Shown one piece after another: positions 1,376-61,159 of a stretch of 64,000 nucleotides of DNA. Location: NCBI GenBank assembly GCA_013076295.1, contig RQOL01000699.1, positions 6,386,104 to 6,450,103 of the forward strand, in the 5' to 3' direction. The notes under the pieces were generated by a model, which saw only the letters and a program-made list of their open reading frames with translations, searched no databases and had not been told where the DNA came from. The number at the start of each line of letters is the position of its first letter. Positions within the stretch are counted from its first letter, which is position 1. Both the position numbers and the translations under genes were made by a program. The stretch comes from Sanderia malayensis (lineage: Eukaryota; Cnidaria; Scyphozoa; Semaeostomeae; Pelagiidae).

Positions 1376-1994
1376 AATTTGTACATAAATCGAGTTATCC
1401 GAAATCGAACATCCTCAGAACAGCCATTTTTGTGCGATATCAGCAAAGATTAAATTCAAAATTGTAGAAATTGTTTTCACCAAATGTAAAAAGTTTCACA
1501 AAGAATGCACTAACTTACCGTATAGGTTTCATTAACAATAGCATTTATGCAAAATATTGTTCTGATAGACAGATCAAATTTCATTCACTCTTATATCCCT
1601 GTCATGATATTTAAATAGCTCCTCCTTGGACCTTTCACATTTGTGAAATGTGAAAAACCACTATTACCAATCAGTAAATAATGGCACATTCTTATGATGC
1701 CATGCTTTTATTCTGGCCATGTGCTCGGGTCCTGGGCTCGACCAACCCCACAAGCTTTGTTTAGAGTGAGTTACTTTGCAATTCAGCTTTTTAAACTACT
1801 CACAAGAACCGAATCTACTTTGTATTCACAGAAATAATCGACAACCTCGCAAAGAAACTGGACCCAAATGACCCCCTGTTTAGATGAAATTGAGGCTAAT
1901 TTCAAGTTTATATCTCACCTCATGTTTTTCTGCATATTGACTTGCCCCAGGAAGCCATTTTCATGCTAAAAGACCACCACCATTTCAGGCAATG
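1376..1994. other. No supported gene
   Basis: Non-coding by inspection. It includes a short direct and inverted TTTCACATTTGTGAAA-type motif around 1635-1650, but no element boundary can be assigned. Confidence 0.4.
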
Positions 1995-3911
1995 GTGGTG
2001 GTATTGAGTACCCAATCAGACCTTCAGGCTGAGCTTTCTCATCCTCCGACCAATGAGCCGTTATTAAGCAGCCTGTCTTTTCAAAGCATCTGTACCGTGA
2101 TAAGGCATAGCTCTCACTGGAAAGCCTATTCTATGCCTCACCAACCCAGTGTGTAATTAGAATTCTTCGCTTCTTGACATCCAGTTTTTCAACACTGTTC
2201 CCAAGCCAAAGATCTATAATTTGGTCACTTTGCAGCCACTCATCTTGGAGGGTTCGAACTTGGAGAATTCAGCATGTTACCAAAAGCCACAATCTACAGG
2301 TTGCCAGATGTCTGTCACACCGCCAAGCCGAACCAAACAACACCATTTAACTTTCTGACCTCACTCAGAAACAGATCGTTAGTTTGCGCACTTAATTTGT
2401 CACAGAAAATAATGAGTTCTTTAATTTCACCTGTTTCGGAAGAATTTTGGACAGCTGGTTTCGGAGTTCTCTTCATGCAGTCGATGCTAAAATTGATGTC
2501 TGCCTAGGCGTTTGTCTGCCAGTAAACATCCACGTTTTTGTGGTATGCCTGTATTTCAACCTGGCTGATTCTTTTCGCTGTTCCACGGAAAATAATTACA
2601 ATTTTGACTGGCGGTCCTTCAGCTGCAAAGCAGATTTGTAAAGTGCACTGCCACTTATCAAGTCCCGGTCCCAGTGTGCTGAAAAGGAATTAAAGATAGC
2701 AATTTTAGAAGGAGTTGGCAAATGAGCAGCCCCCAATTTTTATAATATTTCTAAAATAATGTTTTAAAAGGCCCAGTCTGGAAAGAGTTTAAACAAAAAG
2801 CAGAAAGCGCTTTACTTGACCCAGGTTGGATGGTTTCTTTGTTCTCCACGTGGAAAGTGTTTTTCGTATGTTATTTAAAATTGATCCCAAACGGCATAGG
2901 AACTTGATCAACGTTGAAGCGTTTAGAAGGTCGGAATCTCCCCATTTGCTGTCATAAGAAGGCTTTTTTGTTTCCTGTCTTGATTAAGCCCTCACGCAAA
3001 GTTGTGTGCCAACCAATCATGCCTGAAAAGAAGCTTGGTTTCTCAGCTCTTTTTTTACGCAGAATTCTCTTAAACTTGATTTTGTACTTCTTGATAAAGT
3101 TGAAGACTGCAGATTTCTGGATAGCTTTAATATCTGATTGGGCACTTTGGTCGAATTACGCGTTAATCTTCCTAGCATTTGCAAACAGCCATGCGAAAGA
3201 TATTCGCATCCCCTTCGATCTTGCTTCTAGGAATTTTTCGTGAAGCTTCACAAAGACTTGCTTATGCCTTTTGCTTGGCGTTATTTTTTTCATCATTTCC
3301 CTGCTGCTATTGGCGGCTGCATCAGTAATTTTCTGTTCATTCTGTACCCAGCTCGATACCATCCATTTTGAGATGTGGTATTTGAATACAACGTCATTCT
3401 TTTGGTTTCTCTTTGCTTCCTGGATAACTTTCAGCTTAAATTCGGTGTCATAAGATAGTTTGTTGTTCTTCTCTCGATGGTGCCGATTGCTTTCTCCTGT
3501 TTCTGACCCTCTGGCACTTGTCTCTATCTCTTGACATTCCTCTACAGTTTCTTCGATGTTCTCATCCACATCAATAATAGTTGATTCTCTTTGTGGCTCA
3601 ACAGCCTCGGCGCTACTTTCCAAGGTCAATGGATTTTCATTGATTTTTTTAGTTGGTAGTTCTTTTTCTCTCTCACTGACCTTTTGCGAAGTGCACCAAC
3701 ACATGTGCATCGTAAGGCCAGACTTAGTTTTGAAATGCTTGTTGCATGTGTCACAATGATATAAACTTACATCATCATCCTTAACAAACGAACGAACATG
3801 GACGTCTTGTAACTCATTTCGATGAGGTATCTTTTCAGAAAAACCAAACTTGAGGAACGTTAACTGCTTTTTCTTATCTCCCATATTGTAACTACTGTAA
3901 TACTCAGCCAC
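1995..3911 (-). pseudogene. pogo/Tigger-type (CENP-B/Jerky-like) transposase, decayed
   Basis: The 5' 251 codons (3911-3156) are open. A zinc-finger-like segment near residues 52-75 (CDTCNKHF then H and C instead of the usual second His) is followed by an acidic linker. From about residue 150 comes a CENP-B-type helix-turn-helix region (YDTEFKLKVIQEAK, SSWVQNEQKI). After a stop at 3156 the same strand still shows DDE-domain landmarks: FNFIKKY, NVDQVPMPFG near 2885-2915, and a D-I-W-Q-P-V-D-C-G-F segment near 2290. Many stops and frameshifts follow. The family normally cuts and pastes at TA. No terminal repeats were found, so only the coding relic is claimed. Confidence 0.7.
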
Positions 3912-4719
3912 ACACAGAATAAGAATTCTATTTTGTTATGACTAACCTATTTGACTAAAACTAAAACACCTAAAGTGTGAATTAAAAACAAACCACAGCT
4001 GCATGTGAGGTGAGTTGAAACAAAAATTTCTCATGTTGATTCTTGGCCCCATGAGCATGGCCGGCTTGACTGAAAATCAATGGAACTGATTTCCCAATTG
4101 TAAATTGTGCGGAAATATGAATATACTCAAAATTAAAAAGTTCCTTAGGGATTTGGCCTTTAGTAGTAAAAGTTCCTCAAGTTTTTTGATCTTCTACATG
4201 TAGGATCCTTATAAACGGTTCCTTATAAAAAAAGCATGTAGTATGTATAGTATGTTTCTATAGTAGGTATAGTGAGTATAGTATGTTTCTATAGTAGGTA
4301 TAGTATGTAGAGTATGTTAGGCCTTCAACCTGAGTGTGACAGTGATCTTCAACAAAAGTGGGGTGGGTTTTCTATTGTTATTGCCACCGATCTGAGTGGA
4401 ACAGCGATGTTCAACAAAAGTAGGATGAACAGACGTAATATACTTTCAGTTGAAATTATGCAAGTTTTAATAGTTCCTTCCATTCCCAGAACACATGGTC
4501 CATAAAACCCCAGAGCCTCAACTTCTATTCCAGGTTGTTCCAGGTCCATGTTTTCTCCGATGCGAGAATTCCAGAACTTTATTCAGCATGGCAGAAATGC
4601 CTTAAGTGAAACACCACACAGAGAATAAGCTCTGTGAACAATAGATCAGATTTGCGAGTAATATCAGAAAAGAATTGCGAATGAGTTGATCCACTCAGTC
4701 ACCAAAAGGAAAAATTATT
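3912..4719. other. Non-coding with a TAGTATG-rich simple repeat
   Basis: Between about 4230 and 4320 the sequence cycles through TATAGTAGGTATAG and TAGTATGTTTC variants, a degenerate simple repeat. A further direct repeat of about 30 bp (GTGACAGTGATCTTCAACAA and GTGGAACAGCGATGTTCAAC) lies at about 4336-4415. No gene is supported. Confidence 0.5.
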
Positions 4720-5440
4720 TTTGTATGTACTTTCCTCTCACTGTTACTGATACAATGAGATTATCCATTACCATTATATTTACCAAGCATATGTAAAATT
4801 TACTACTTACCATATAAATCACAATTATCTTCACTTGGCAGTTGGCCCTTTATCCTTTGATTTGTTACATATTTTGGTATGTACTTTTCTTTCAGTCTCT
4901 CTAACATCATGACATTCTCCATTATTTTTTATGTTCACCAAGCATATGTATAACCTACTACTTACCATTTAAATCACAAACATCTTATTCTTTTCCAATA
5001 TTTCCAGTTTGGCAGTTGCCAGTTGATTTTTGTTATTCTGTTCAGATTTTGGTATATACTTTTCTTTCAATGTTTCTTACATAATGATATTCTTCATTAC
5101 TATTATGTTCAGTAAGTATCTCCATTACAATTATGTTCACCAACCATATGTATAACTTAGTACTTACCATTTAAATCACAATTATCATATTCTTTTTCCA
5201 GTATTTGCAGTTCGGCAGTTTGCCTTCTATCTTTTCCATTTTTTACATTCTTGAGACTTTTGGTATGTAGTTTTCTTTCAATGTTACTTAGATAATGAAA
5301 TTATCCATTACTATTATGTTCACGAAGCATATGTATAACTTACGACTTGCCAATTAAATCACTATTATGTAATTGCTTTTTCAGTATTTGCAGTTGAGCA
5401 GTTGTCCTTTGATTTGTATCATATTATGTTATCTTGTATC
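4720..5440 (-). repeat. Tandem array of a small exon-like unit, 4-5 copies
   Basis: Four clear units and one eroded unit, spaced about 155-210 bp, share ACCAAGCATATGTATAACTT, a TACTTACCAT box and a CAATTATC...CAGTATTTGCAG block. On the minus strand every TACTTACC box reads as a consensus 5' splice site (GTAAGTA). Upstream of it each unit keeps an open stretch with related peptides: LKEKYIPK at one end and a TAxLQILEKE...DNCDL segment at the other. This looks like a tandemly duplicated exon rather than a plain satellite. The host gene is not identified. Acceptor sites (TTAG or AAG) are weak in some units. Confidence 0.5.
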
Positions 5441-15483: not shown

Positions 15484-15938
15484 TAATTTTAATGCCGGGA
15501 GAGTTGCAACATTTGTCTCAGCTTGCAACCGCCTTACCAACGACCCAGAAATACTTTCTGTGATTGCTGGAGCTAAAATTGAGCTTGACATCCCCCCTAG
15601 CACACTGGAAAAGAAGAAGCGAAATTTTGCCCAAAAAGAAAGCCAAATTATAAATGCTGAAATTATAACTTTGTTAAAAAAAGGGTGTCTTAGAAGTCAC
15701 GACCCCGGAACCTGGGCAAGTTATCTCCCCTATATTTATTGTCCCCAAACCTGACGGAACTTTTCGCATGATATTAAATTTGAAAGAATTTAATCACCAC
15801 GTTGTCTATCACCATTTTAAAATTGCTTTATGGCGTCTCTAGACTTGAAAGATGCTTATTATAGCAATCCAGTGGATCCCCAAAACAGAAAATACCTTTT
15901 CAATGAAATCTTGTATCGATACACATGTATTCCTAATT
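15484..15938 (+). pseudogene. DIRS reverse transcriptase, 5' half
   Basis: The frame covers AGRVATFVSACNRLTNDPEIL, the E-x-x-I-x-x-E-I-x-x-L-L-x-K-G segment, ISPIFIVPKPDGTFR, a NLKEFNHHV block and MASLDLKDAYYS, which are RT motifs 1-3 of the DIRS order. A one-base shift near 15740 and another near 15830 break it. It stops at residues TCIPN, where the 11-kb TIR element begins. The RT resumes at 26937 with GLSCCP, the expected continuation. Confidence 0.75.
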
Positions 15939-16451
15939 CAGCTAGGGATACTAAACTTGATCGGGTTTCAGAAACCCGAACGAGTTTCATGCAGCTCGAT
16001 CGGGTTGCAAATTCTATTTTAGGCCCTCTCAATTAAACCCGATTTGGTTGCAAGTGCAAAAATCACCAACAAGACGGTCCCAGGGGATAAAACTGATAAT
16101 TCATTCGGAATCTACATGTGAAAATACATATATTTACGTGAAAAAAATTGGGGGTTGTCCCCGCCGTTTTTTCACAAAATTCAAGTTTAGTTTTGATGAT
16201 GTCATATCATTGTCATCTATTGTTTTATTGTTCTATTGTATACGATACTCAAACCAGCGCGTGTCTTCAACAACAATGAAAGCAAAGCATTCCTTTCTGA
16301 GAATTCTTATAATTTCTGAATCAAACACAAATCTAATCATTAATTCTAATCAAAATAAAAACAGAAGTAATATGATGTGTTCGGCATAAACAAACTAAAA
16401 CAAAACTTTGTCCATTTCATGTTTGGAAAGATGTTCTTCCATAATTTGCTT
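15939..16451 (+). repeat. Left long terminal inverted repeat of the 11-kb element
   Basis: Pairs with 26422-26932. It contains internal short inverted motifs (GATCGGGTTTC then GAAACCCGA) right at the tip, which may form secondary structure or transposase sites. Confidence 0.85.
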
Positions 16452-16538
16452 CACTCTTGCAAGTTTAGTCTCCTTTACTCGGAGAAGATACAAGGAAGAG
16501 ATTTCTGTTCCACCACCTGGGACATCTTGGCCAAAATT

Positions 16539-16913
16539 TTAGCGAGATCTTTTGAATTTCTGGTGGACATAGATATCTGCTGCATGTCTGGCATTCCTTC
16601 CAAAACATTTTATTGGCTCAATCAGTGTATCTTCCAATAAAATTTTTCTGAAAACTTTGCATAAATTTGCAGGAACTCTTCCAATCTGCCTGCCCAGGAT
16701 TCCTTCTGCTTCTTTTGACGTGTATTTGTCTTCTAACTTCATGGGTACCATCACCTTCATAGCATTTGGGTCATAGGAGTTATTATCTTCACACATCACG
16801 TTTAATGGAATGTTTTGAGGTGGCTTGATTTTGAACACGTGATACCCTTTAATGAACCATTTTATGCAAACTTCATTCTTAATGGTATTTTGAACTGAGC
16901 AACAAGAAGCCAT
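16539..16913 (-). CDS. HIRAN-like domain protein
   Basis: An ATG at 16913 opens a protein of about 124 residues. From residue 20 it reads IKGYHVFKIKPPQ, then MCEDNNSYDPNAMKV, then ILGRQIGRVPANLC. This follows the HIRAN pattern: aromatic G-Y-H start, an E/D-x-N-x-x-D-P-N-A core and a G-x-x-I-G-x-x-P end. HIRAN domains bind DNA ends or damaged DNA in helicases such as HLTF, and related stand-alone proteins occur in cnidarian repeats. The gene is divergent from the large gene at 17194, with about 280 bp between the starts. The frame is intact, unlike its neighbour. Role in transposition is inference. Confidence 0.55.
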   Translation of the reverse strand: MASCCSVQNTIKNEVCIKWFIKGYHVFKIKPPQNIPLNVMCEDNNSYDPNAMKVMVPMKLEDKYTSKEAEGILGRQIGRVPANLCKVFRKILLEDTLIEPIKCFGRNARHAADIYVHQKFKRSR

Positions 16914-17193
16914 GTTATGAAAATTTAGAAAATATACTGTTCGTGATTCACCGTCTCCAGCTAATGAAAAATAAGAGAATGACACCGGGTCACTCTGTGC
17001 AAGTTATCATTGCAAAATTTTAGATCAGGAATTTGCTCAGTCGAAACCTCACTTGATTGTATCAATACACATGTAAGGCAATGTCATAATAAACAATCAA
17101 GTCGAATGTCCATTCATTTTATGTAGCAATTTCTCGTATAAAACAAAGCTAAGTTCAAAACCAAAGAAATTTCTCCAGGGTGAGTGAAAAAGA

Positions 17194-20100
17194 ATGAGTA
17201 ATACCAGCAAATCTGAATTTTCTCGCAAGTGTGGTGCTAGAACACATAACAATTATCGGCCAACTGGCAGACTGTTGAAAATAAGAGAGCCAAAGGGGAA
17301 AAAAGAAGGTAAAATTAAAATCAGTAAAGAGCAAGCAATACAGCTTGTTAGTGACAATGTTATAACGAATAAAACAAATTTCATATGTAAAACCTGCTTT
17401 GAAGCTGCAATAAAGGATTGCGCCGTTGGTTCCTCGACAAGTGCCGAAAGCAGCAAGCAAAAGTATTTAGATTTTGAAAAGTATTTAGAATCAATTGTAG
17501 AGCTTGCGAAAAATGATGTCAAGATTTTGTTTATGGAACCAACAAGTTGTTCCATTGAAAACTTGCTATCATATAATTCAAAAGAATGGCTTTCACAGAG
17601 ACCAGAACTACTAGTAAAGCTTCTGGCACATTTGTGTCAGGTCACAAATAGTCAGCTGATGTACGAAAATCGCTGCACATTGTTTCTTTCTAGAATAATC
17701 GAGATTATTTACTCTGCTGTAAATTCTAGAATCGTACTGCCGATATCATTTTCTGAAAATATACATGCATTCTCAGTTTGGCATAGCAAGCAACTTGTTG
17801 AATAAAATAATGCTGTCGGCCCAGCCGGGTCACATTCATTTCTTCAGAAGTGGATATTTTCCAAGCTGTTGCTCCGTCTGATTTTCCTGAAGGATTGGTG
17901 AAATGCGTATTTGATAATGAGCAAGTTATCGGAAAGACCAGGTCCATCAAAACGGAAAAAAAGGTTCCCCTTAGCGTCATTACAAGTTTGGCGAATATCG
18001 TTATCGACGAAAAGTGCTCTCTGCAAAAAGAGGTTTCTTTGTGTCCCCGCATGTGATTTTTTGAGAAATTGACAACAGAAAAAAAAGAAAAGAAAATTAA
18101 ATCCAATATTTGCCTGTCGAAGATACGTACTTCCAGAGATGCTTTCATTAGCAGCAGATTAGAAGTCATGAGGAAAGAACAACGTTTTGAATGGGAACAA
18201 ATCATTGACTATATAGACAATCATGTACAATCTCTATGCGAGGCAGAAGAAGAAAAACTTTGCATTTATTGTGCAGGAGCAAATGATATCGCGTATAATA
18301 CGTGCAGAAATTGTAATGGGGCTCTGGCAAAGTCCAAAGTAACCATAAGTGACTTCATTGACCGCAACAAAGAGATCCATATTTCAAAAGTATTTGCAGA
18401 TTTTGTAGGTGGCGAAAAAATTGTGTGCAAAATTAGAACCGGAGAGCTGGACTTGGTGAACCCTAATGACTATGAAAACATTGCACAAATTTTAAGAAAT
18501 CTCGGTAAGCGTGCTGGAATCAAACAATATGTTGCTGGAGGAACAGGGAGGCAATGGTTGATAATAGAAGTAGATGGCCTTATATATTGTATAGTCGAAC
18601 AACTAATATTTCATACACTGCATTGCCCAGTGTGTAAAACATCATATTTTGGGGCAGATTCTTTTAATACGCACGAATGCACATTTTCAAAAAACGTTCT
18701 TCCTGAACATGAATTTGATTGGCTTTTTTTGCAACCAGGCATGTTGCATTTTGAAATGAATGCTTGCAAGTCCATTATGAGATTCAACTGGGAAATTTTT
18801 GGCGAAGAGGTTGTATGGTCTTCAGGCTTTACAACCACAAAAGGACTTGTACGTATCCATTGCCAATGAATTGCTAGTGCCATTTGTTCGCAACTGCATG
18901 AAGTTGGACTTAGAGATATCTGTTGACAGATATTGGGCATGGTATCAAGAGTCAGCTATAAATCCAAATTACACGTACATATTCACATATTTACATAATC
19001 TGATGCTGTTTCGCGAAGGAGTTAAAATGGGTGCCTATAGTCTAGCTGAAGCTGCATGAGAGCAATTGCAGATTGTTTTTTTCGCACGGTCTCATCCTAA
19101 GTATCGCAGGATTGTGGCCTTGGATAAAATGTGGAAAGAGTTACTTCCGGAGAAGTTGGTTGAAGTGTTGAAGTGTTCGTTTGCTGCCAGTCAAGTGAAT
19201 AATCACGGACACTATCAGGGAGGCGATGCCTCATTGGAAGAAATCAACAAAAACGCGAAAGCCTGGGTAACATCTGGTGTACCAACAGATGACAACTGGC
19301 TTAAAATATTTAGAAACCTGGATGAGCTGTGTAGGGTAAGACAAATGTAACTGTACTGAAAATCAATGTGCACAGAAAAAATCTTTACAAAATATGTTCT
19401 GGACAAAAAAAGTGTCATTTAGTCTATCGTTTGTTTTGGACATAAAGTTTGGACAGATTTCAGCTTATCGTATGCAATGCAGTGTACCCTTTTGACTGAC
19501 TACACTTTTTTTAAAAGAATGTTCTGAGCCTCAATATTCTTAATTTAATAACATATTTATTAATTCTTAGCATGGCAGAAAATAAAATCTGTGCTGCAGA
19601 AAAGTATTTCCTGTAGGACAAATTTTTTCCACACTTTCATTGAAATTTGGATGAGTAATATTTAAAACCATTTCCTGTGAAAAGCACACCAATTCAAAAA
19701 TAAAAAACGCCTACTAAAGATACTAATAGTTTCACAAGATTGTGAGCCTGCCAATATTCTTAAAATTTCCTTAAATTTCACGAATTTCGACCCTCATTAT
19801 TCTTATAAAGTGTATTCTTATAAAAAAGGGTGTATGCCGATACGCGTTAATTTTGTGAAATGAAAAGGGTATGCATATGGTCATGGTCATCCCACTTCTG
19901 CAGCAGCCTACATTTGCATAACGGGGCAAAAAAGGCAGGGGTGCAAAATTTAAGTTAAATTATTATAATCTAATCATTCCTATTTGTATATATGCGCTTT
20001 AATAGTTACCCGATTTTGCAACAAGCATGTCTCCATTCGCTTGATAGTTGACGCGAGAATACATGACCTAGGCCCGCAAAATTTCAGTCTTCGAGCGCGG

Positions 20101-20819
20101 CGTATTCCCGTTGTATGCTTCCGAAATTATCTTTAACTGGTCAATAATGGTTTAGTAATAATCTTCCACGTCTTCGGCCAATAATTTTTCAAATTGATCA
20201 ATTTTTAATTAAATAATTGAAGAAACTATACAGCGGGTAGTGGGAGGTACCACTGCGACACTACCTAGCACTACAGCGTTAGCCTCGTTTTGGAATTGAC
20301 GTCTCGTTTTCAAAAACGAATGTGAAAGTGGTCTATTGGCAGCATGTGTCTTACAATTGTTTTTTCTGTTGCAATTGCTTGAATTGATGGCTTCTATCTT
20401 ATTTTCAGTTCTATTTCCACACCTCCAATTTGCTGCAAGTGATCTACCTGTATGGAAATATAAACTTTACACAGTAATTCTTTTGTAGATAAGAGATAAT
20501 CTGTTAGAAAAGACTGGTTGTAATCGTTCTGATGCTTTAAATAGAAAAGTTCCGGGGATCATGACGGCAGTTGCAAAAATCCGTTCAACCTTCCGAAAGG
20601 TATCGTATCTCAACACTCCAATGGAAGCAGCTATGCAGCAGAGTACAACGGGTGCAGAATTAAATCCTGCCCTACGGAATTTTACAACTCTTGCAGTAGG
20701 CATAACAGATAAGTACATGGAGGGATTTGTTTCTTGTCCAGAAGTAGCCTGTTCTAAAGCAACAGCTTGCATTGCAATTACAAAAAAAGAGTTGGAAAAA
20801 CAGAAAAAAGAGGAAGAAT
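17194..20819 (+). pseudogene. Very large transposon protein, unrecognised family, putative transposase
   Basis: A protein of more than 1000 residues is readable across several frames. It starts at 17194 with a Cys-rich head (FICKTCFEA). It continues through SRIVLPISFSENIHAFSVWHSK, a VFDNEQVIGKT motif near 17909, a zinc-like CIYCAG...CRNC cluster near 18260, a C2HC-like CPVCKTSY...THEC finger near 18620, and LQPGMLHFEMNACK. A C-terminal block GGDASLEEINKNAKAW near 19220 precedes the last exon. The donor after 19335 and acceptor before 20476 join in phase; the last exon ends with a K/E-rich tail at 20819. Breaks: a stop and shift near 17805-17850, TGA at 18054, a shift near 18850, TGA at 19057. 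The order matches proteins common in cnidarian genomes, but no catalytic family is established. Confidence 0.55.
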
Positions 20820-21228
20820 GACCTTCTCACCTTCTTTATCACTGTATTTATACGGCGGCAAATAGACATTTGTCGATTGCACTTGAAAACAGGATTTGCC
20901 GATTGCACTTGAAAACAGGTTTCATAGGTCCCGTGTGGTGTTGAAATACTTCTTTACTTATTACTTCAAACGACGTCCCTTGTTCAGTCCGACCCAGACT
21001 TGGGTCGTTTAGCTCGTCGAGCTGAGCAAAATCAATTGTTGTTAAGTCTTTCTGGCTTGTCATTTCGCTTCTCAGTTCAAGCACAGTCACAAGAATAATC
21101 TATAGTCCGGAGGCGCGAACAAAAGGCTTTGTCTTTGCTTTGTTTCCCTGCGTGATGTTGAAAAAACAACAACAACAACCTTCGGGTGCATATATTTTGC
21201 TTCGAGTGCGCAACAATTAGCGAACACA

Positions 21229-22539
21229 ATGGCTGCCTCTGCAAATGTCGTGGAAGAAGACTTTATTTTTGGGGATGATATTGATATGTTGGTAGATTTT
21301 TTGGAAGACGATTTGTTCGATCCAAACAGCGAGCTTTTGGAGCCTTTTTTGGCGGTCGATGAAGAGGTATGTATGATTTGAAATAATTTCCTTTGGGTGA
21401 TCGCCGTAAAGCGGCCTAGGCCGTGAGCCTGTCAGCCTACTCCTCTTTCTTCTCTTCATTCATGAGCTTCAGCAATGCAAAATAAAATAGATGAATACAA
21501 TTTCCCCTTTTTTAAATAATTATTATATTTATTTTATAGTTGAAGACCGGAGAAGCTTGCAAAGAATGCGGAAAGATGTACAAAACTCGAGGCGGGCTGA
21601 CACGTCATGTGAATTCCAAACATAAAAAGCATGCGGAGAACGCTATGAAAATCCATCCTTTGGAACTAAAAGCAATTTTGGCAGAAGCTGCTCTGAAACC
21701 ATCGAATGATCAATGTTTTCCAGAGGAACTACGTTCACATTTTAAGGGATTTAATGTGTCGCTAGCAGATAGTATTGAAATCAGGGAAAAATTTGCTGCT
21801 GTGTTCGACAAATTTTCGGGAAATGGTGAAAAATTTTACTCTAACTTTTACGAGGTCATTGCCTTGGGAGAGGTGACTCAAGTTGGAACATTATGCCAAC
21901 AAGACACATCATTGCTCTTAACCGAAGTTGCAAATATTTGTTTAGGAAAGTTAGCAGGATGTCCCTCGGAAACAACTACTTCACAAATTAAGAAGAAGTT
22001 TACAGAGAAGGAACTGAACTCTTTAGAGTACCTATCAGGTTACTGCTTCCATAAAGTATACATGAGCACCAGAAACAGCAAAAAGTGGAATAGTATCGTA
22101 AGTCAAAAGACTCTGAGCTTACTGAAGGCTGCTAAAACAGACGTTGCCCAAAAGTTGGTCGATCTCAAGAACAGAGGAGGTCTTTGGAAAGTGAACAGGA
22201 ATGCGGTTGCAATTTTTAAGGCCGTAGTAGGTAGAAACAAAATTTATGGCAGTATCAGCACAATCATTGAAAAACATTGATGCTAGTAGCGTAGTTATAA
22301 GTGCCTTGAAAGACCCATACGTAAAGTCACATATTTCATCCATTGTTTCAGCTGCAACATTAGATATCGAGAATGAAATCGCAATAAATGTTTTTGAGAC
22401 ATTGATTCATTTGTATGTGCGTGTTCGATCACATTCACATGCAAAAGACATAAAAGAGAAACACAAAGCCATGAAAAAATTGAGCAAGAAAAACTCACTT
22501 CGAACAGAAATAAAGAGAGCAGTGTATCAACAGACTTAG
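21229..22539 (+). pseudogene. C2H2-finger accessory gene of the P-type element
   Basis: Exon 1 (21229-21366, 46 codons) is acidic (EEDFIFGDDIDMLVDFLEDD) and ends before GTATGT. Exon 2 starts at 21540 after TTATAG in the same phase. A C2H2 finger follows at once (CKECGKMYKTRGGLTRHVNSKH). A helical region contains LNSLEYLSGYCFHK and LVDLKNRGGLWKVN. A one-base shift near 22245 moves the frame to the C-terminal part (VFETLIHLYVRVRSHSHAKD...LRTEIKR) ending at 22539. I have the impression this family is abundant in cnidarian genomes, with function unknown. Its place between P-type ends suggests a passenger or regulatory gene, perhaps binding the ends. Confidence 0.65.
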
Positions 22540-22852
22540 GTCATTAAGTCGAACCCATGTCACCTTGGTATACTAAAAATTTTAAAATTTGGTTGGAAAT
22601 AATATAAATTGGTCGTAATAATTTGAATAAGCTCATTCGAATTAAAAACTATATGCTTCAAAGGGGGCTTATTCAGGATAGGGGCTTATTCAAAGAAGAG
22701 AAAAGTTGACATTTTTTTAATCCTAAAAAGAAGTCAACTAAGCTACTTCAACATCTTAAGTTTTGTCGTCATGAATCTGTAGCTCAACTGCATCCACTTT
22801 TACATGTTCTTCTTGAATACTTGATGCTAAAGGATCCAATAGTATTGAGTAT

Positions 22853-25800
22853 CTACCTTTTCTTTTGTCGCTTTTCAAGTGGCTCTTCGGAAATGTTGCT
22901 CCACTTTGAACTTTTTGCCTGGCAATTCCCCGCTATAGGTGCAACAGTGAATTGGGATTTTATAATATTGTCATTGATTCCAACACTGCGAATATTAGGA
23001 TTGTCTCTACGGTGACCAATTGCTCGTTGCCGGCCAAAATAATTTTCCAGGTCATCCTGGCAAAAACGCTCTGAAAGAATATACTGCACCCCATTTTCAA
23101 GTAAGAACTTACATGCTTCAATGAAGGAGTATATCGTTATCTGAAGTCCCTTGTACGTCTGTGGTGAGATGAACATTGCTTGCTTTTCTGATTTTGAAAA
23201 CTTTCCTGGTTTTGACTCAATTGATTTCTGCCAGTCTTGGAAGTATTTCAAAAATTCACCCTCAAGCCAAGCGAATCTTGAATCGTCTGGAGACACATAT
23301 GGCATTAAAAATGGTTTTCGCTTCAATAGATGTTCCTTTGTATCTCGTACATTAAGGCAGTCAAAGAACATGTCCATTTTCTCACAAAACTCTGCTGTTG
23401 CACTTGCTTCTTTTGGACCATATTCTCTCAACACTGCTGCCACACTACTACTCAGGACTTGAACTGCAAGGTGAACTCTCATTGCAGAGTATGGTGTAAT
23501 ATTCACATGATCACTGGTTAGTTTTGGCAGTAGTTTGAGTCCACAATCTAGGTCTTCCTCATAAATGTGCTTTATGTGATTCCAGATTATGTGCTGTCCA
23601 CTGTTCCACAGCAAACGAGAAGATTTTCCAGAACCGGAGTTAGAAAGGTTGTTACCTGCTGTTTTCATAAGGTGGGGAGCATCAGAAAAGAAGAATATGT
23701 ATCGGTCAGGTGCAAAAAGATTGACTGCTCTGTACACAACCTCCTTGCCAGCTTTCCCATCCATCCCTTTGTGCATTGAAAAAAAGGTTCTATTTGATGA
23801 GGTTCCATCACAAACAGCACCCATAACTTTCAATTGGCATGTTTTCTCTAATATGGCCACTGCTCTCCAAAATAGAGGAAACAGTTGTAACGATGTTACT
23901 CCTTGAGTGGCAAAGGTGGCAAAACTGTATGACAGGGGGTTCACCACACTTTTTACCAGGAACACAGGAACATGACTTGTAATATCCTGAGCTTTGACAA
24001 GCGTTGCATAGTTGATGTTTGTGTCACCCAAATCCATAAACCCGATCAATTCCCCTGTATTTTTATCCCATACCAGATCTTCCTGGATCTTCATTTCATC
24101 GAAACAAATTATTATGTATCTCTCTGGTGGTGTAAATGATGCAGTTTTGTTTTGCAAATCAGCAGTAGTAGCTTTGTTGAAGCCCCTCTTTGGCTTTATA
24201 ACATTGCGGTAATCTCTCAATGTACGGAGACTGGGTAAAAAAACAGCACCAGTTCCTTCTTTTTTGTTGAAACGTAGCTCATTGTAAGTTGAGGTTGATT
24301 TTGCAGCCAAAGCAAGGCAAAATTTTATTATCATAGGATGGTATCTTATTTGAGATGGAGATTGCCTGAGATAATTTTGTTGCTCTTGCCAAAAGAGCTT
24401 CATGAAAGGTGGGATTTCCCTCTGATCACAGCTGCTAAAAATTTGCTTGAACTCATCACCAACCTCCACACTGACTGCTTTGGAAGTAAGATTCATTTCT
24501 TGCTTCATTTCTTCTATCTGCTTTTCAAGTTGCTTGCACTTTATTCTATTTTCCTGAAGAGCAAGCTTCACTCTCTCGGGCTTTGTTTTGAAAGCGGTGC
24601 CTTCAACTTAGCTGGGGTGTTAATCGCTGACTCTTTTTGCTTGATCAGCTTGCATTCCTTTTTTTCTGCTTCTTTGCATTCAGAGCATGAACCCTCACAC
24701 TTGATCAATAAATGGCAGTCATTGGAACGCAGGTATTCATCTTGCATGACTGTTTCTTTCTCGAAAAGATTGAAGTGTTTCGGGATACAATGTATCCTTG
24801 TTTTTCCATCAGATTTCCGGACAACTGAATGCAAATTTATGCCGTTGCACAAAACATGGGTATCAAGTTCTTTCAAGAGGTAGGATAATGTCACATTTTG
24901 AAAACTGCTGTCAAATTGTTTCATAGGATCAACATTTGGTGGCAGGAGCCAGCCATAAACTCGGATAAAAAAATTGAGTGTAAAGTCAACTGTGATAGCA
25001 TACTTTGGTGCCATAAAATGAGAGTTTTTCATTGTTATGCAGCATGCTTCTGGTGTTTCTGTGATTTCTATATCTATTTTCAAATCCTTGATTCGCTTTA
25101 TGGACTCCTCATAATTTTTGTAACAAGTTTGAGCAGAACAGTCTTGGGTTCCTGGCTGCGAATCTGCTCGTTTTTTTATGCTTACATCTGATCTTTCATT
25201 TATCTTTTTGACTTCCAACGTTTTCTTGGGAAGCTTTAAGTGTGGAATACTACCCTCTTTCAAAGTCTTCTTCAGTTCATCTAAAATAAATAAATAAATT
25301 AATTAATATACAAATATAATATATAATATATAGGGGTAAATATAAATAACAATATAATTAAATGCTAGTAGGGTAAACTGGATAAGTCAGGAGAGAGACA
25401 TTTGGGACACCCTGGGGTAATATGGGACAAGCAATAAAGATGGGGTGGTTGGTTATAGGTAATGTGCAATAAAAATAGATAGATAGAATGCTTCCCGAGG
25501 AAAGCTCAAATTCCGCGGAGATTTTTCTCTTTTGGCATTCTGCGCAGGCCGCAGGAAAACTTTAGGCCCAACTTTTTTACAATGGTCTGACCGTCTGACA
25601 ACGTTCATTCGATTTTGTCATCATTCATATTCGACCTAAATCTTTGGTTTATAAAGGAAAATATAAAGTAAAGTAAGAGCACTTACAATGATACAGTTCT
25701 TCTGGTAGAAAATGTTGCTCACAAACATAAACTTGATCTTCCTCGATTTGCTTTTTTAAAGGCGGGTCCACAACACGGTCTCGTGTGATAACATTTAAGA

Positions 25801-25924
25801 TATCGCTTCTCCACTTCTTTGTAAAGTCGTCAACTGCAGATGGAACTTTTATGATGGATAAACCTTTATATTTTCTTGATCTACAGGCTCCGCAACCATA
25901 AATTGCACAATTTGCACCAGGCAT
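22853..25924 (-). pseudogene. P-element/THAP9-like transposase
   Basis: Exon 1 (25924-25687) encodes a THAP zinc finger: MPGANCAIYGCGAC near the start and VYVCEQHF near residue 70. A 406-bp intron (donor GTAAGT, acceptor TTTTAG at 25281) joins phase-1 to exon 2, which carries the THAP tail and a Cys-rich linker. After a one-base shift near 24575 comes a leucine-rich coiled coil and then the P-type catalytic domain. Acidic residues sit in IICFDEMKI, GAVCDGTSSNRTFF and FCQDDLENYFGRQR, in the positions expected for the D-D-E set. The protein excises DNA by binding element ends. Apart from the single frameshift it looks intact, so this copy may be fairly young. Confidence 0.85.
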
Positions 25925-26421
25925 GTTAACAACTTTGAGTCATCGACGATGACGGCCATAACAACTTCGCATCTTCGATTTTTGGAATGCACTCGGGGAA
26001 GTCTGGGCACAAGTGAAAGTCAGGACAAAAAGATAATACAATAGGCTATTGTTTGCCTCTGGACTATAGATTATTCTTGTGACTATGGTTCAAGTAAAAT
26101 GTGTCTCACCACCACAATATACTGGTTTTATAGCATTTGTACATAGTTTATATATAGTTCACAAATCTCGGCTCTTGGTATTAATCTTTTCCTGCACTTG
26201 ACCATAAGAAAAAGTTCTTATATATGTCAGATATATTTACTAACTTGTATGAAACTGCAATCCGAAATAGAACAGATGAAAGTAAGTTATAGCTAACAGT
26301 TGAGTTGCAGGCCACATGTTTTCATTACTTTGGATTAACCAGGATAACAGGCTTGCTCCTCATGCTTATCACGTGTTTTTCATAGTTCATTTTACATGAA
26401 CAAAATATGGAAGAACAAATT

Positions 26422-26932
26422 AAGCAAATTATGGAAGAACATCTTTCCAAACATGAAATGGACAAAGTTTTGTTTTAGTTTGTTTATGCCGAACACATCA
26501 TCTTTCTTTTGTTTTTATTTCGATTAGAATTAATGATTAGATTTGTGTTTGATTCGGAATTATAAGAGTTCTCAGAAAGGAATGCTTTGCTTTCATTGTT
26601 GTTGAAAACACACGCTGGTTTGAGTATCGTATACAATAGAACAATAAAACAATAGATAACAATGATATGATGAGATCAAAACTAAACTTGAATTTTGTGA
26701 AATACGGCGGGGACAACCCCCAATTTTTTTCAAGTAAATATATGTATTTTCACATGTAGATTCGGAATCAATTATGAGTTTTATCCCCTGGGACCGTCTT
26801 GTTGGTGATTTTTGCACTTGCAACCAAATCAGGTTTCATTGAGAGGGCCTAAAATAGAATTTGCAACCCGATCGAGCTGCATAAAACTCGTTCGGGTTTC
26901 TGAATCCCGATCGAGTTTAGTAACCCTAGCTG
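26422..26932 (-). repeat. Right long terminal inverted repeat of the 11-kb element
   Basis: Mirror of 15939-16451. The inner edge ends with a local duplication of the GTTCTTCCATAATTTG motif that the left arm has only once. Confidence 0.85.
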
Positions 26933-26936
26933 TAAA

Positions 26937-27690
26937 GGTCTGTCATGTTGCCCATGAATATTTACAAAGCTTCTTCAGCCGGCTTTAACCACATTGCACA
27001 AGAAAGGGCACATTGTTATTGCATATTTAGATGATATCTATATCCAACCAAATACTTTAGAAGCATGTAGCCGTGCAGTAATTGATACCATTGAATTATT
27101 CACATTCATAATTCACCCCTCCAAATCAGCGTTTACACCATCAAAAGAGCTAAAAATGTTGGGATTTATCCTTAACTCGGAGTTAATGACAGTACGCCCT
27201 CCTCAGGATAAGGTGGAGTCATTGATAGGCTTATGCGATGCTGTGCTCGCAAGCGATCTAATTACCATTCGAACAATCGCCAAACTCTTGGGAAAGTTTA
27301 TTTCCTTTTGCCCTGGTGTTCAATTTGGCCCCCTTTATTTTCGACGAATCAAAAGGGCCAAAACATTAGCCCTAAAAACAAATTAACACAATTTCGAAAG
27401 GAAACTGTTGATCGCCAAGGAAGAGCGTGAGGAGATTAATTGGTGGGTATAAAATGCCGCAAAATAAGTCGAGATCAAGCGGAAGGAAATTGGGTGTTTC
27501 CAGACTGGCCAACACAGCCCTGCTACCCAGTAGTAAAAACTTTGCTGAAATCAAAGCCCATTGTGCTCAAACCAAAGAAGGAATTCTGACCTTAAAAAAC
27601 CACCCCCAACAAAAAACATCCTCTCCATTCCAAACTACAGCTAATTGTATGTCGCTTATCAGCAAAAGTCTAGAATGAAGCAGCCTCTCT
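26937..27690 (+). pseudogene. DIRS reverse transcriptase 3' half and RNase H remnant
   Basis: Resumes at GLSCCP, then a TGA where an Arg codon is expected, then IFTKLLQPALTTLHKKGHIV and the catalytic AYLDDIYI. The thumb and connection region (KSAFTPSKELKMLGFIL) follow, with an RNase H-like region broken after 27385. Together with 15484-15938 it forms one RT gene split by the 11-kb element. Confidence 0.8.
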
Positions 27691-59060: not shown

Positions 59061-60094
59061 ATCTTGCGGTGGAAATTTAGCAAATAAAAATATGACTGGA
59101 AAGTTGTTTTTTTATTTCTTGCTGCCATGGTTTATACTCAATGTTTGGCAAATAACAAAGAATGAAAAATGCCTGTGTGTGCACTTTTCGATGCTGAGAA
59201 AAAGTAACATGTCAATATCAGCAACACAATGGATAAAAAAACATGCTTGTAAAAAGTACAGGCACGTCATGCTTAATCACAAGTAAAAAAATTGGTGCTA
59301 TTTGGATACTTTGAGGCTGGTATTACTGACATTGATTTCTTTGGCAGGTGATGTAGAGTCAAATCAAGGGCCTGTGCCTATACCAAATGAAAGAGTTGGT
59401 CAAGCTCAGTTCAAATTCTTTCCTTTATCATGATGCACAATTGAATATAAGCAAACTTTTAGGATTAAATCTAGTTACTGCATTTGCGAAGACCACTCCA
59501 AGAAATTTAAATAAGCCCACGCAAATATATAAAATTACCGGTGATGGAAATTGCTTGTTTCGAGCATCAGCATATTCGGTGTGTGGTGCACAAAAGTGTC
59601 ATAAAAAGGTTAGAAGCAAAGTAACATCATATATGCAAGATTGTGAATTGGAATTGCAGCCCCATATTGGCTGCTCTGTAAAGGAATATCTCAATAAAAG
59701 TAAAATGGACAATGATAAAGTTTGGGGTACTGACATTGAGTTGTTAGTAGCAGCATGGCTTTTCAAATGTGATATCTTTGTATATTCAAGATTTGGTTTT
59801 CAACTAAAATGGTCAAAATTTTCTTCAGTAAGAATTAGAAAATCTAATGAGAACAATGAATCTATATATTTGCAAAATGTGAATGGATATCATTATGATG
59901 CTGTCACAAATGTATCTAGTTATGTGAACACTCAAGAAGAAATGATAAATGATGATTTATCAATTATTCAAAGACATAAAATTGTGCCATCAGAGCATCA
60001 TGATGCTTTTACTTGTTTACGGGAAAGGTTAGCAAAATTTGATTTAGAGTCTGTTGGGATACAAGGTAATGGAAATTTTTTTTTTAGATCAGCC
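59056..60094 (+). pseudogene. 2A-like peptide and OTU-protease ORF of a non-LTR-type element
   Basis: A broken plus-strand polyprotein. The lead part (59056-59286) is cut by TAA, then the same frame gives a hydrophobic run and GDVESNQGP at 59347-59373, which differs from the 2A consensus (DVExNPGP) by Pro to Gln. After a frameshift, 59387-59960 encodes an OTU cysteine protease: ITGDGNCLFRASAYS (nucleophile Cys) and NVNGYHYDAV (His). A second OTU start follows (LRERLAKFDLESVGIQGNGN) with Phe in place of Cys, and the frame ends at the junction with the integrase fragment. Such 2A-OTU leaders occur in animal non-LTR retroelements. Confidence 0.6.
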
Positions 60095-60097
60095 TAG

Positions 60098-61159
60098 AGC
60101 AAAATCTCCATCTTACTGCGTAGACTAAACAAATACGGTCTTTCAAGGCGTGAGGATAAAAACCGAAATAGTTATGACGCATTGATTCATACAGCATGTT
60201 TGAAGATGTTGGAAATAATAAGTGGTCCAGGATCCTGGATGGGGTACAGATCCATGTGGCATCGTCTAGAGCTGGAAGGTATTCGAGTACCACGTTCAGT
60301 AGTTTCGATAATATTAAGAGAAGTTGATCCAGAGGGAAGCGACTTGAGAAAACGCCACAAACTGAAACGAAGAAAATGCAATAATCCTGGGCCCAACTTT
60401 GCGTGGCACATCGATGGTTATGACAAATTAAAACCCTGGGGATTCCCCATACACGGCGGCATTGACGGTTTCAGTCGTCGCATGCTGTGGTTAAATGTTA
60501 CCAGGTCCAACAGTTCGCCAGATAATATTGCTTTGATGTTTCTGAGGACAGTGGAAGAAAACAAAGGTTGCCCTGTCGAGCTCGTGACCGATTTGGGAAC
60601 TGAAAATGGTATCGCTGCTGCTATTCAAAGCTTTTTTCGAGATAACCCAGATGCGCACCGGTATGTGCCATCGCCTAGGAACCAGCGCATTGAAGGATGG
60701 TGGTCCTACTTCTCCAAACATTGTTCCAGATGGTGGATAAACTTTTTTAACGACCTTCAAAGCAGAGGAATCATTGACATATCATTAGAGCTATCGAAAG
60801 AGTGCTCATGGTTTTCTTTCTCAAACCTCATTCAAAGGCACTTAAACATGGTTGTGGAACATTGGAACACCCATACGATACAAAAATCAAGATTCAATGT
60901 CACACCTGGAAGGCCAGATAGTCTCTTCTACTTGCCCGAAAGATTTGGATGCCAAAACCAATTGGTGCCAGTGCCACAAAGAGAATTAATCCATGCGTCT
61001 CAGCATATTGTAGAACAGGATGGTTTAAACGAATATCAAGAATACTTTGACATGGTTAAAGGTACACTCGGCATCAATGATCCCTCCAATTGGCAAGAAG
61101 GATTGCATTTGTACAAAACTCTGATGGATGTAGCTAACAATGGGTACAATCGCCCGTAA
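60098..61159 (+). pseudogene. Integrase-core (rve-like) DDE transposase, N-terminally truncated
   Basis: Starts abruptly within the helical DNA-binding region (KISILLRRLNKYGLSRRED), right after the TAG that ends the OTU frame. From there it is open to TAA at 61159. Core: FAWHIDGYDKLKPWGFPIHG (D), LVTDLGTENGIAAA (D), SPRNQRIEGWWSYF (E), EHWNTHTIQKSRF and a SLFYLPERFG block. The zinc ribbon and first 60 or so residues are missing. It is the best preserved of three copies in the window. No CG-flanked ends were found around it. Confidence 0.75.

Follow-up and report, generated by a model that had tools for sequence, protein, structure and literature searches.

What is the structure that fills positions 15939 to 26932 of the 64,000-nucleotide stretch of Sanderia malayensis DNA analysed here (contig RQOL01000699.1, positions 6,386,104 to 6,450,103; hereafter the window), where two long inverted arms enclose coding sequence and interrupt an open reading frame (ORF) of reverse-transcriptase type? 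An earlier note, made from the sequence, had proposed a DNA transposon with a HIRAN-like gene and one giant gene. Our analysis suggests, with a probability of roughly 80%, that the outer element is a copy, no longer functional, of a DNA transposon that is autonomous, moves by cut-and-paste, measures about 5.7 kb and is equipped with a two-exon DDE transposase gene and with HIRAN and PHD helper proteins. The DNA transposon and the HIRAN gene of the earlier reading are retained, but three elements had been fused into one, the large gene had been made too big, and the PHD gene had been missed. The limits of the element and of its target duplication are the following:

15939 to 16451, plus strand: left terminal inverted repeat, tip CAGCTAGGG.
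26422 to 26932, minus strand: right terminal inverted repeat, ending in CCCTAGCTG.
15934 to 15938: left 5-bp target duplication, TAATT (TAATG in relatives of the target).
26933 to 26937: right 5-bp target duplication, TAAAG.

The arms, about 510 bp each, pair in three ungapped blocks that are 89–96% complementary, and their identity of 95.3% across 508 aligned bases, together with the CAGCTAGGG tips, bears out the earlier description of long, near-identical arms. A search of the host genome (184 Mb) with the left arm returned at least 30 matches, the window's own two arms included, and 11 sister loci (L009 to L019) were fetched from among them. The concern that the arms might occur mostly alone does not hold in these 11 loci, given that internal element sequence is present in six (L009, L010, L011, L013, L015 and L016) and absent from five (L012, L014, L017, L018 and L019), L012 being a miniature of 618 bp made of two arms. 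The arms of L009 are 99.8% identical to each other, which identifies it as a young copy; the corresponding value is 84–85% in L011 and L012, and that of L010 is not comparable due to an internal deletion in its left arm.

All four sisters for which both ends are available are flanked by exact 5-bp repeats (ACATG in L009, CATAT in L010, CACTA in L011 and CAATG in L012), and a single match of this kind would arise by chance about once in 1,000 cases if equal base frequencies are assumed. These sister copies establish both that the element is mobile and that it duplicates 5 bp of its target. In the window the flanks, TAATT and TAAAG, agree at three of five positions. Of 17 matches to the interrupted target we examined four (L037 to L040): the uninterrupted sequence reads TTCC-TAATG-GTCTG in L037 and L038 and TTTC-TAATG-ATCTG in L040, and L039 has no match to the right flank, so that TAATG is read through in three of the four. 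Because these relatives read TAATG, the two flanks in the window are best taken as 5-bp copies with one change each. The TAAT/TAAA duplication proposed earlier is therefore one base short of what the sisters have, and a 4-bp duplication was rejected, as it leaves one T unexplained and conflicts with all four double-ended sisters. That the insertion splits a reverse-transcriptase ORF agrees with our results, in that the right-hand target ORF matches Pfam RVT_1 (E=2.3e-6, with 27.9 bits narrowly missing the 29.6-bit cut-off), and the left-hand ORF tested gave no Pfam match.

The gene plan was read from L009, in which all three frames are open, and its counterparts in the window are:

17194 to 19335, plus strand: transposase exon 1, with the motifs VFDNEQ, EVDG and LEEINK in this order and the donor GTAAGA at 19336.
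20489 to 20821, plus strand: inferred transposase exon 2, with the acceptor TTTTGTAG; its likeness to the C-terminal part of P0005 was judged by eye only.
16539 to 16913, minus strand: HIRAN gene, its C-terminal end shortened by a stop (about 170 residues in the sister L009).
20331 to 20474, minus strand: remnant of the PHD-finger ORF.

In L009, exon 1 spans 1655–3862 and ends at the donor AAG/GTAAGA, the intron spans 3863–4489 (627 bp) and ends at the acceptor TTTTGTAG/ATA, and exon 2 spans 4490–4825; the junction is in phase and yields a protein of about 847 residues from two exons, in place of the more than 1000 residues first suggested. The host gene model P0001 (740 residues) stops within the intron, so that the second exon is a predicted one. 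In the window, tblastn recovers exon 1 as three pieces, which are not in the same frame. The fold predicted for the large protein is, among the structural matches listed, that of known DDE transposases, and the protein is likely to be a DDE transposase of RNase H fold, in which D241, D460 and E705 are candidate catalytic residues based on conservation and the predicted fold. Two zinc clusters, already noticed in the VFDNEQ protein, are conserved in an alignment of 13 family sequences: an invariant zinc ribbon (C356/C359/C370/C373), which separates the first D from the second, and a C2HC cluster, which separates the second D from the E and in which C477, C480 and H493 are invariant and C495 is found in 12 of 13 sequences. 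A GxxH motif (G515, H518) is likewise invariant in all 13, and histidine occupies columns 493, 518, 560, 561, 623 and 656 in at least nine rows.

The earlier statement that this protein is not a named transposase is in line with our Pfam searches, where the only informative match was DUF6589 (PF20231), a family to which Pfam assigns no function. Twelve of the 13 family members match it at E<=0.1 (best 6.7e-11), and the 742-residue ORF of L009 passes its gathering cut-off (29.9 vs 27 bits), with the relatives P0013 and P0005 below it; the best matching stretch covers only about 70 of 410 positions. We found no literature on DUF6589. Compared with PDB sequences, the transposase gave four matches (E 0.19–0.64), none of them informative, and its alignment gave 20, the best being ribosomal and other zinc ribbons; scans of viral contigs with the transposase and HIRAN alignments returned zero relatives.

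The HIRAN ORF of L009 (856–1464, minus strand) has its final codons within the terminal repeat. Its assignment is weak in Pfam, where the window (19.1 bits, E=0.0012) and L009 (18.3 bits) both fall below the 24.7-bit cut-off of PF08797, which the homologue P0018 passes with 36.2 bits; the fold, in turn, is a clear structural match to the HIRAN domain of human HLTF, and we thus concur with the HIRAN-like label given before. The HIRAN domain of HLTF sits within a large helicase-like protein, whereas here HIRAN stands alone in a transposon, and P0016 and P0017 have R in place of the motif tyrosine of the HLTF/Rad5 domain. Judging from titles, none of the papers listed in our searches describes a HIRAN gene encoded by a transposon. 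The PHD ORF of L009 (3924–4478, minus strand) is open and lies inside the transposase intron; it matches Pfam PHD at E=1.3e-4 (22.3 bits, slightly short of the 24-bit cut-off) and, more weakly, the PHD of RAG2 (E=0.0027). Neither the HIRAN alignment nor the PHD ORF gave a match among PDB sequences. HIRAN sequence is present in the window, L009, L010, L011 and L015, and was not found in what was fetched of L013 and L016; PHD sequence is present in L009, L010, L013 and L016, as well as in the window remnant. The three genes, in fact, move together within one genome.

All three are also under protein-level constraint. With L009 as the reference, the ratio of non-synonymous to synonymous change (pN/pS) for exon 1 was 0.23 in the window, 0.33 in L010 and 0.27 in L016 (L013 was left out, being too rearranged); for HIRAN, 0.30 in the window and 0.39 in L010; and for PHD, 0.27 in the window remnant (46 codons), 0.30 in L010, 0.16 in L013 and 0.20 in L016. 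Exon 2, with few changes, gave 0.71 in the window, 0.62 in L010, 0.62 in L013 and 0.26 in L016, against 0.62, 1.01, 1.29 and 0.40, respectively, on the opposite strand, so that three of the four comparisons speak for the plus strand. L010 and L016 themselves carry deletions, frame changes or stops.

Two further mobile elements lie inside the window copy, neither of them part of the outer element:

21082 to 26087: nested P-superfamily transposon with THAP, TNP-like RNase H and GTP-binding domains.
About 19439 to 20334: arm of a further inverted-repeat family.

The first is an insertion absent from L009, and empty sites for it are found in L009 and L010. It has an imperfect inverted pair of ends and a 7-bp duplication, GTTCAAG, at 21075–21081 and 26088–26094, and it is assigned to the P superfamily because of its matches to the TNP-like RNase H (E=2.4e-22), TNP-like GTP-binding (E=3.1e-17) and THAP (E=1.5e-5) domains. 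A second host copy on contig C675 is 97% identical across its first 618 bases. On the opposite strand of the nested element, a second ORF (21540–22280, plus strand) shows a weak C2H2 zinc-finger match. The repeat arm substitutes for about 360 bp of L009-type sequence and for most of the PHD ORF, and its family has 68 matches in the host, its own included, several of them paired in inverted orientation. A single giant gene across 17–26 kb was rejected, given these two elements inside it, and what had been described as a simple two-gene element proved to be three mobile elements merged, with the nested P element overlooked. With its transposase in three pieces, its HIRAN gene stopped early and its PHD gene mostly lost, the window copy cannot be autonomous: it is a dead copy, without intact proteins, which a P-superfamily transposon and a further repeat arm have since disrupted. 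Elsewhere in the window, at 59357–61159 (plus strand), an ORF for an OTU-like protease (E=1.7e-12) is directly followed by one with an rva_4 integrase core (E=9.9e-27), and this pair is probably another DNA transposon.

How would an intact copy move? A cut-and-paste route is suggested by the conservation of the transposase and its predicted fold. The transposase would recognise and bind motifs repeated within the long terminal repeats, where a 14-bp motif present three times in the left arm (at 15958, 15997 and 16040, spaced by 39 and 43 bp) offers possible binding sites; cleavage would fall at the CAGCTAGGG tips, and insertion would proceed with a stagger of 5 bp. HLTF's HIRAN domain holds 3' ends, and the HIRAN protein would, by its fold, most likely do likewise at the cut or at stalled forks, and might so protect the ends or steer their repair. 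RAG2 tethers RAG1 to chromatin, and the PHD protein, going by its domain, would most likely tether the transposition complex to histone tails. The element is ordinary in kind and unusual in equipment, with a HIRAN gene and an antisense PHD ORF nested in an intron.

To which superfamily such an element belongs is a harder matter. The earlier note had held that a match to a known superfamily would undo its novelty; known DDE transposases do share the predicted fold, but none of the superfamilies that we tested fits by its defining features. The placement that fares best, to which we give somewhat less than an even chance, is a further Academ lineage, with HIRAN and PHD genes where the lineages described so far have an XPG nuclease or a helicase. 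It draws on an hhalign comparison with the host 'DQALYAKA' transposase-like family (E=3.4e-4, probability 38, score 45.1), where, with two sequences added, the score was 44.0 and the probability 31, while 30 column-shuffled controls reached 24.7 at most and the reversed control also gave 24.7. That family, located through a motif search, is tentatively taken to be AcademX. The similarity, however, involves only the surroundings of the first D and the sequence that precedes it, and five scanned pieces of the family gave no Pfam XPG match; Pfam XPG_I has four matches in the host genome, so that no multi-copy XPG-bearing family was seen by this search. In L009, no XPG or helicase match was found in the six of 13 listed ORFs that our Pfam scan covered, and the 5-bp duplication differs from the 3–4 bp of AcademX and the 9–10 bp of AcademH described in PMC10045372. 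The DQALYAKA family itself (e.g. L061 and L069) has 150 scored matches in the host, with open frames of up to 1,624 codons.

It is less likely, but conceivable, that the element is the founding member of a separate DDE superfamily, marked by the 5-bp duplication, CAG tips, the zinc ribbon and the C2HC cluster, with molluscan elements carrying a RAG1 N-terminal region among its relatives. In favour of this, membership in P, Kolobok and Transib/RAG was rejected on defining features. The P superfamily (Drosophila P element, THAP9) shares its transposase fold with the outer element, but its target duplication is about 8 bp, no THAP, TNP-like RNase H or GTP-binding domain was found in the scanned L009 ORFs (the 742-residue ORF included), and the true P element here is the nested one. 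Kolobok has a TTAA duplication and RR..YY ends, with 3–5 bp duplications in KolobokP solo repeats (PMC9587614), and the outer element has neither TTAA nor such ends; the C/DxxH that the Kolobok/hAT/P/MuDR/Dada group has between the second D and the E is lacking, with GxxH in its stead. Likeness to Transib/RAG is greater, as ProtoRAG and TransibSU have in common with our element a 5-bp duplication, CA..TG ends and a separate PHD protein beside the DDE enzyme (PMC8355894, PMC12730594, PMC4411706). The published features of the CMCT clade (Transib and RAG1) are CA..TG ends, duplications of 2–5 bp and the motifs C(2)C plus H(3-4)H (PMC12730594); the outer element has the ends, a duplication within that range and a counterpart of C(2)C in C477–C480, but no H(3-4)H pair between the second D and the last E.

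Further support for a separate superfamily comes from P0014, an unnamed 571-residue product of Mytilus edulis that belongs to the transposase family (E=3.6e-65) and starts with RAG1_imp_bd, the RAG1 importin-binding domain (28.9 vs a cut-off of 23.3 bits, E=1.1e-6), and from the RAG1-N-terminal-like Aplysia mobile element N-RAG-TP, to which the N-terminal region of RAG1 has been traced (PMC8355894). The same region has been traced instead to the 'Chapa' domain of Chapaev (PMC4411706). P0014, however, is one predicted product, possibly from a chimaeric gene model, and no RAG1 N-terminal-like domain, the feature of N-RAG-TP, was found in the six L009 ORFs scanned. More doubtful still is the full version of this proposal, in which a new 5-bp-duplicating superfamily with its own HIRAN and intron-antisense PHD, and with mollusc members bearing a RAG1 N-terminal region, would be a candidate donor lineage for that part of RAG1. 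Finally, that HIRAN and PHD are captured passengers without a role in transposition is improbable, since both recur in the copies listed above and both are constrained as proteins, even though their role is a predicted one and the five HIRAN homologues from other sources, having no known neighbours, may be host genes.

For many cut-and-paste transposons, which encode a transposase alone, the handling of breaks and the choice of target fall to the host. Returning to a DDE transposon with two helper proteins as our preferred reading, the basic kind of element is already known, and it is the combination of three genes that is unusual. A DNA-end binder and a histone reader borne by a transposon would parallel RAG1/RAG2, with their DDE enzyme, PHD partner and 5-bp duplication, perhaps independently, and the young L009 copy, with its three open frames, makes the helper-protein idea testable. 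The transposase family also suggests a DDE transposase function for part of DUF6589, and provides a lead on the origin of the RAG1 N-terminal region.

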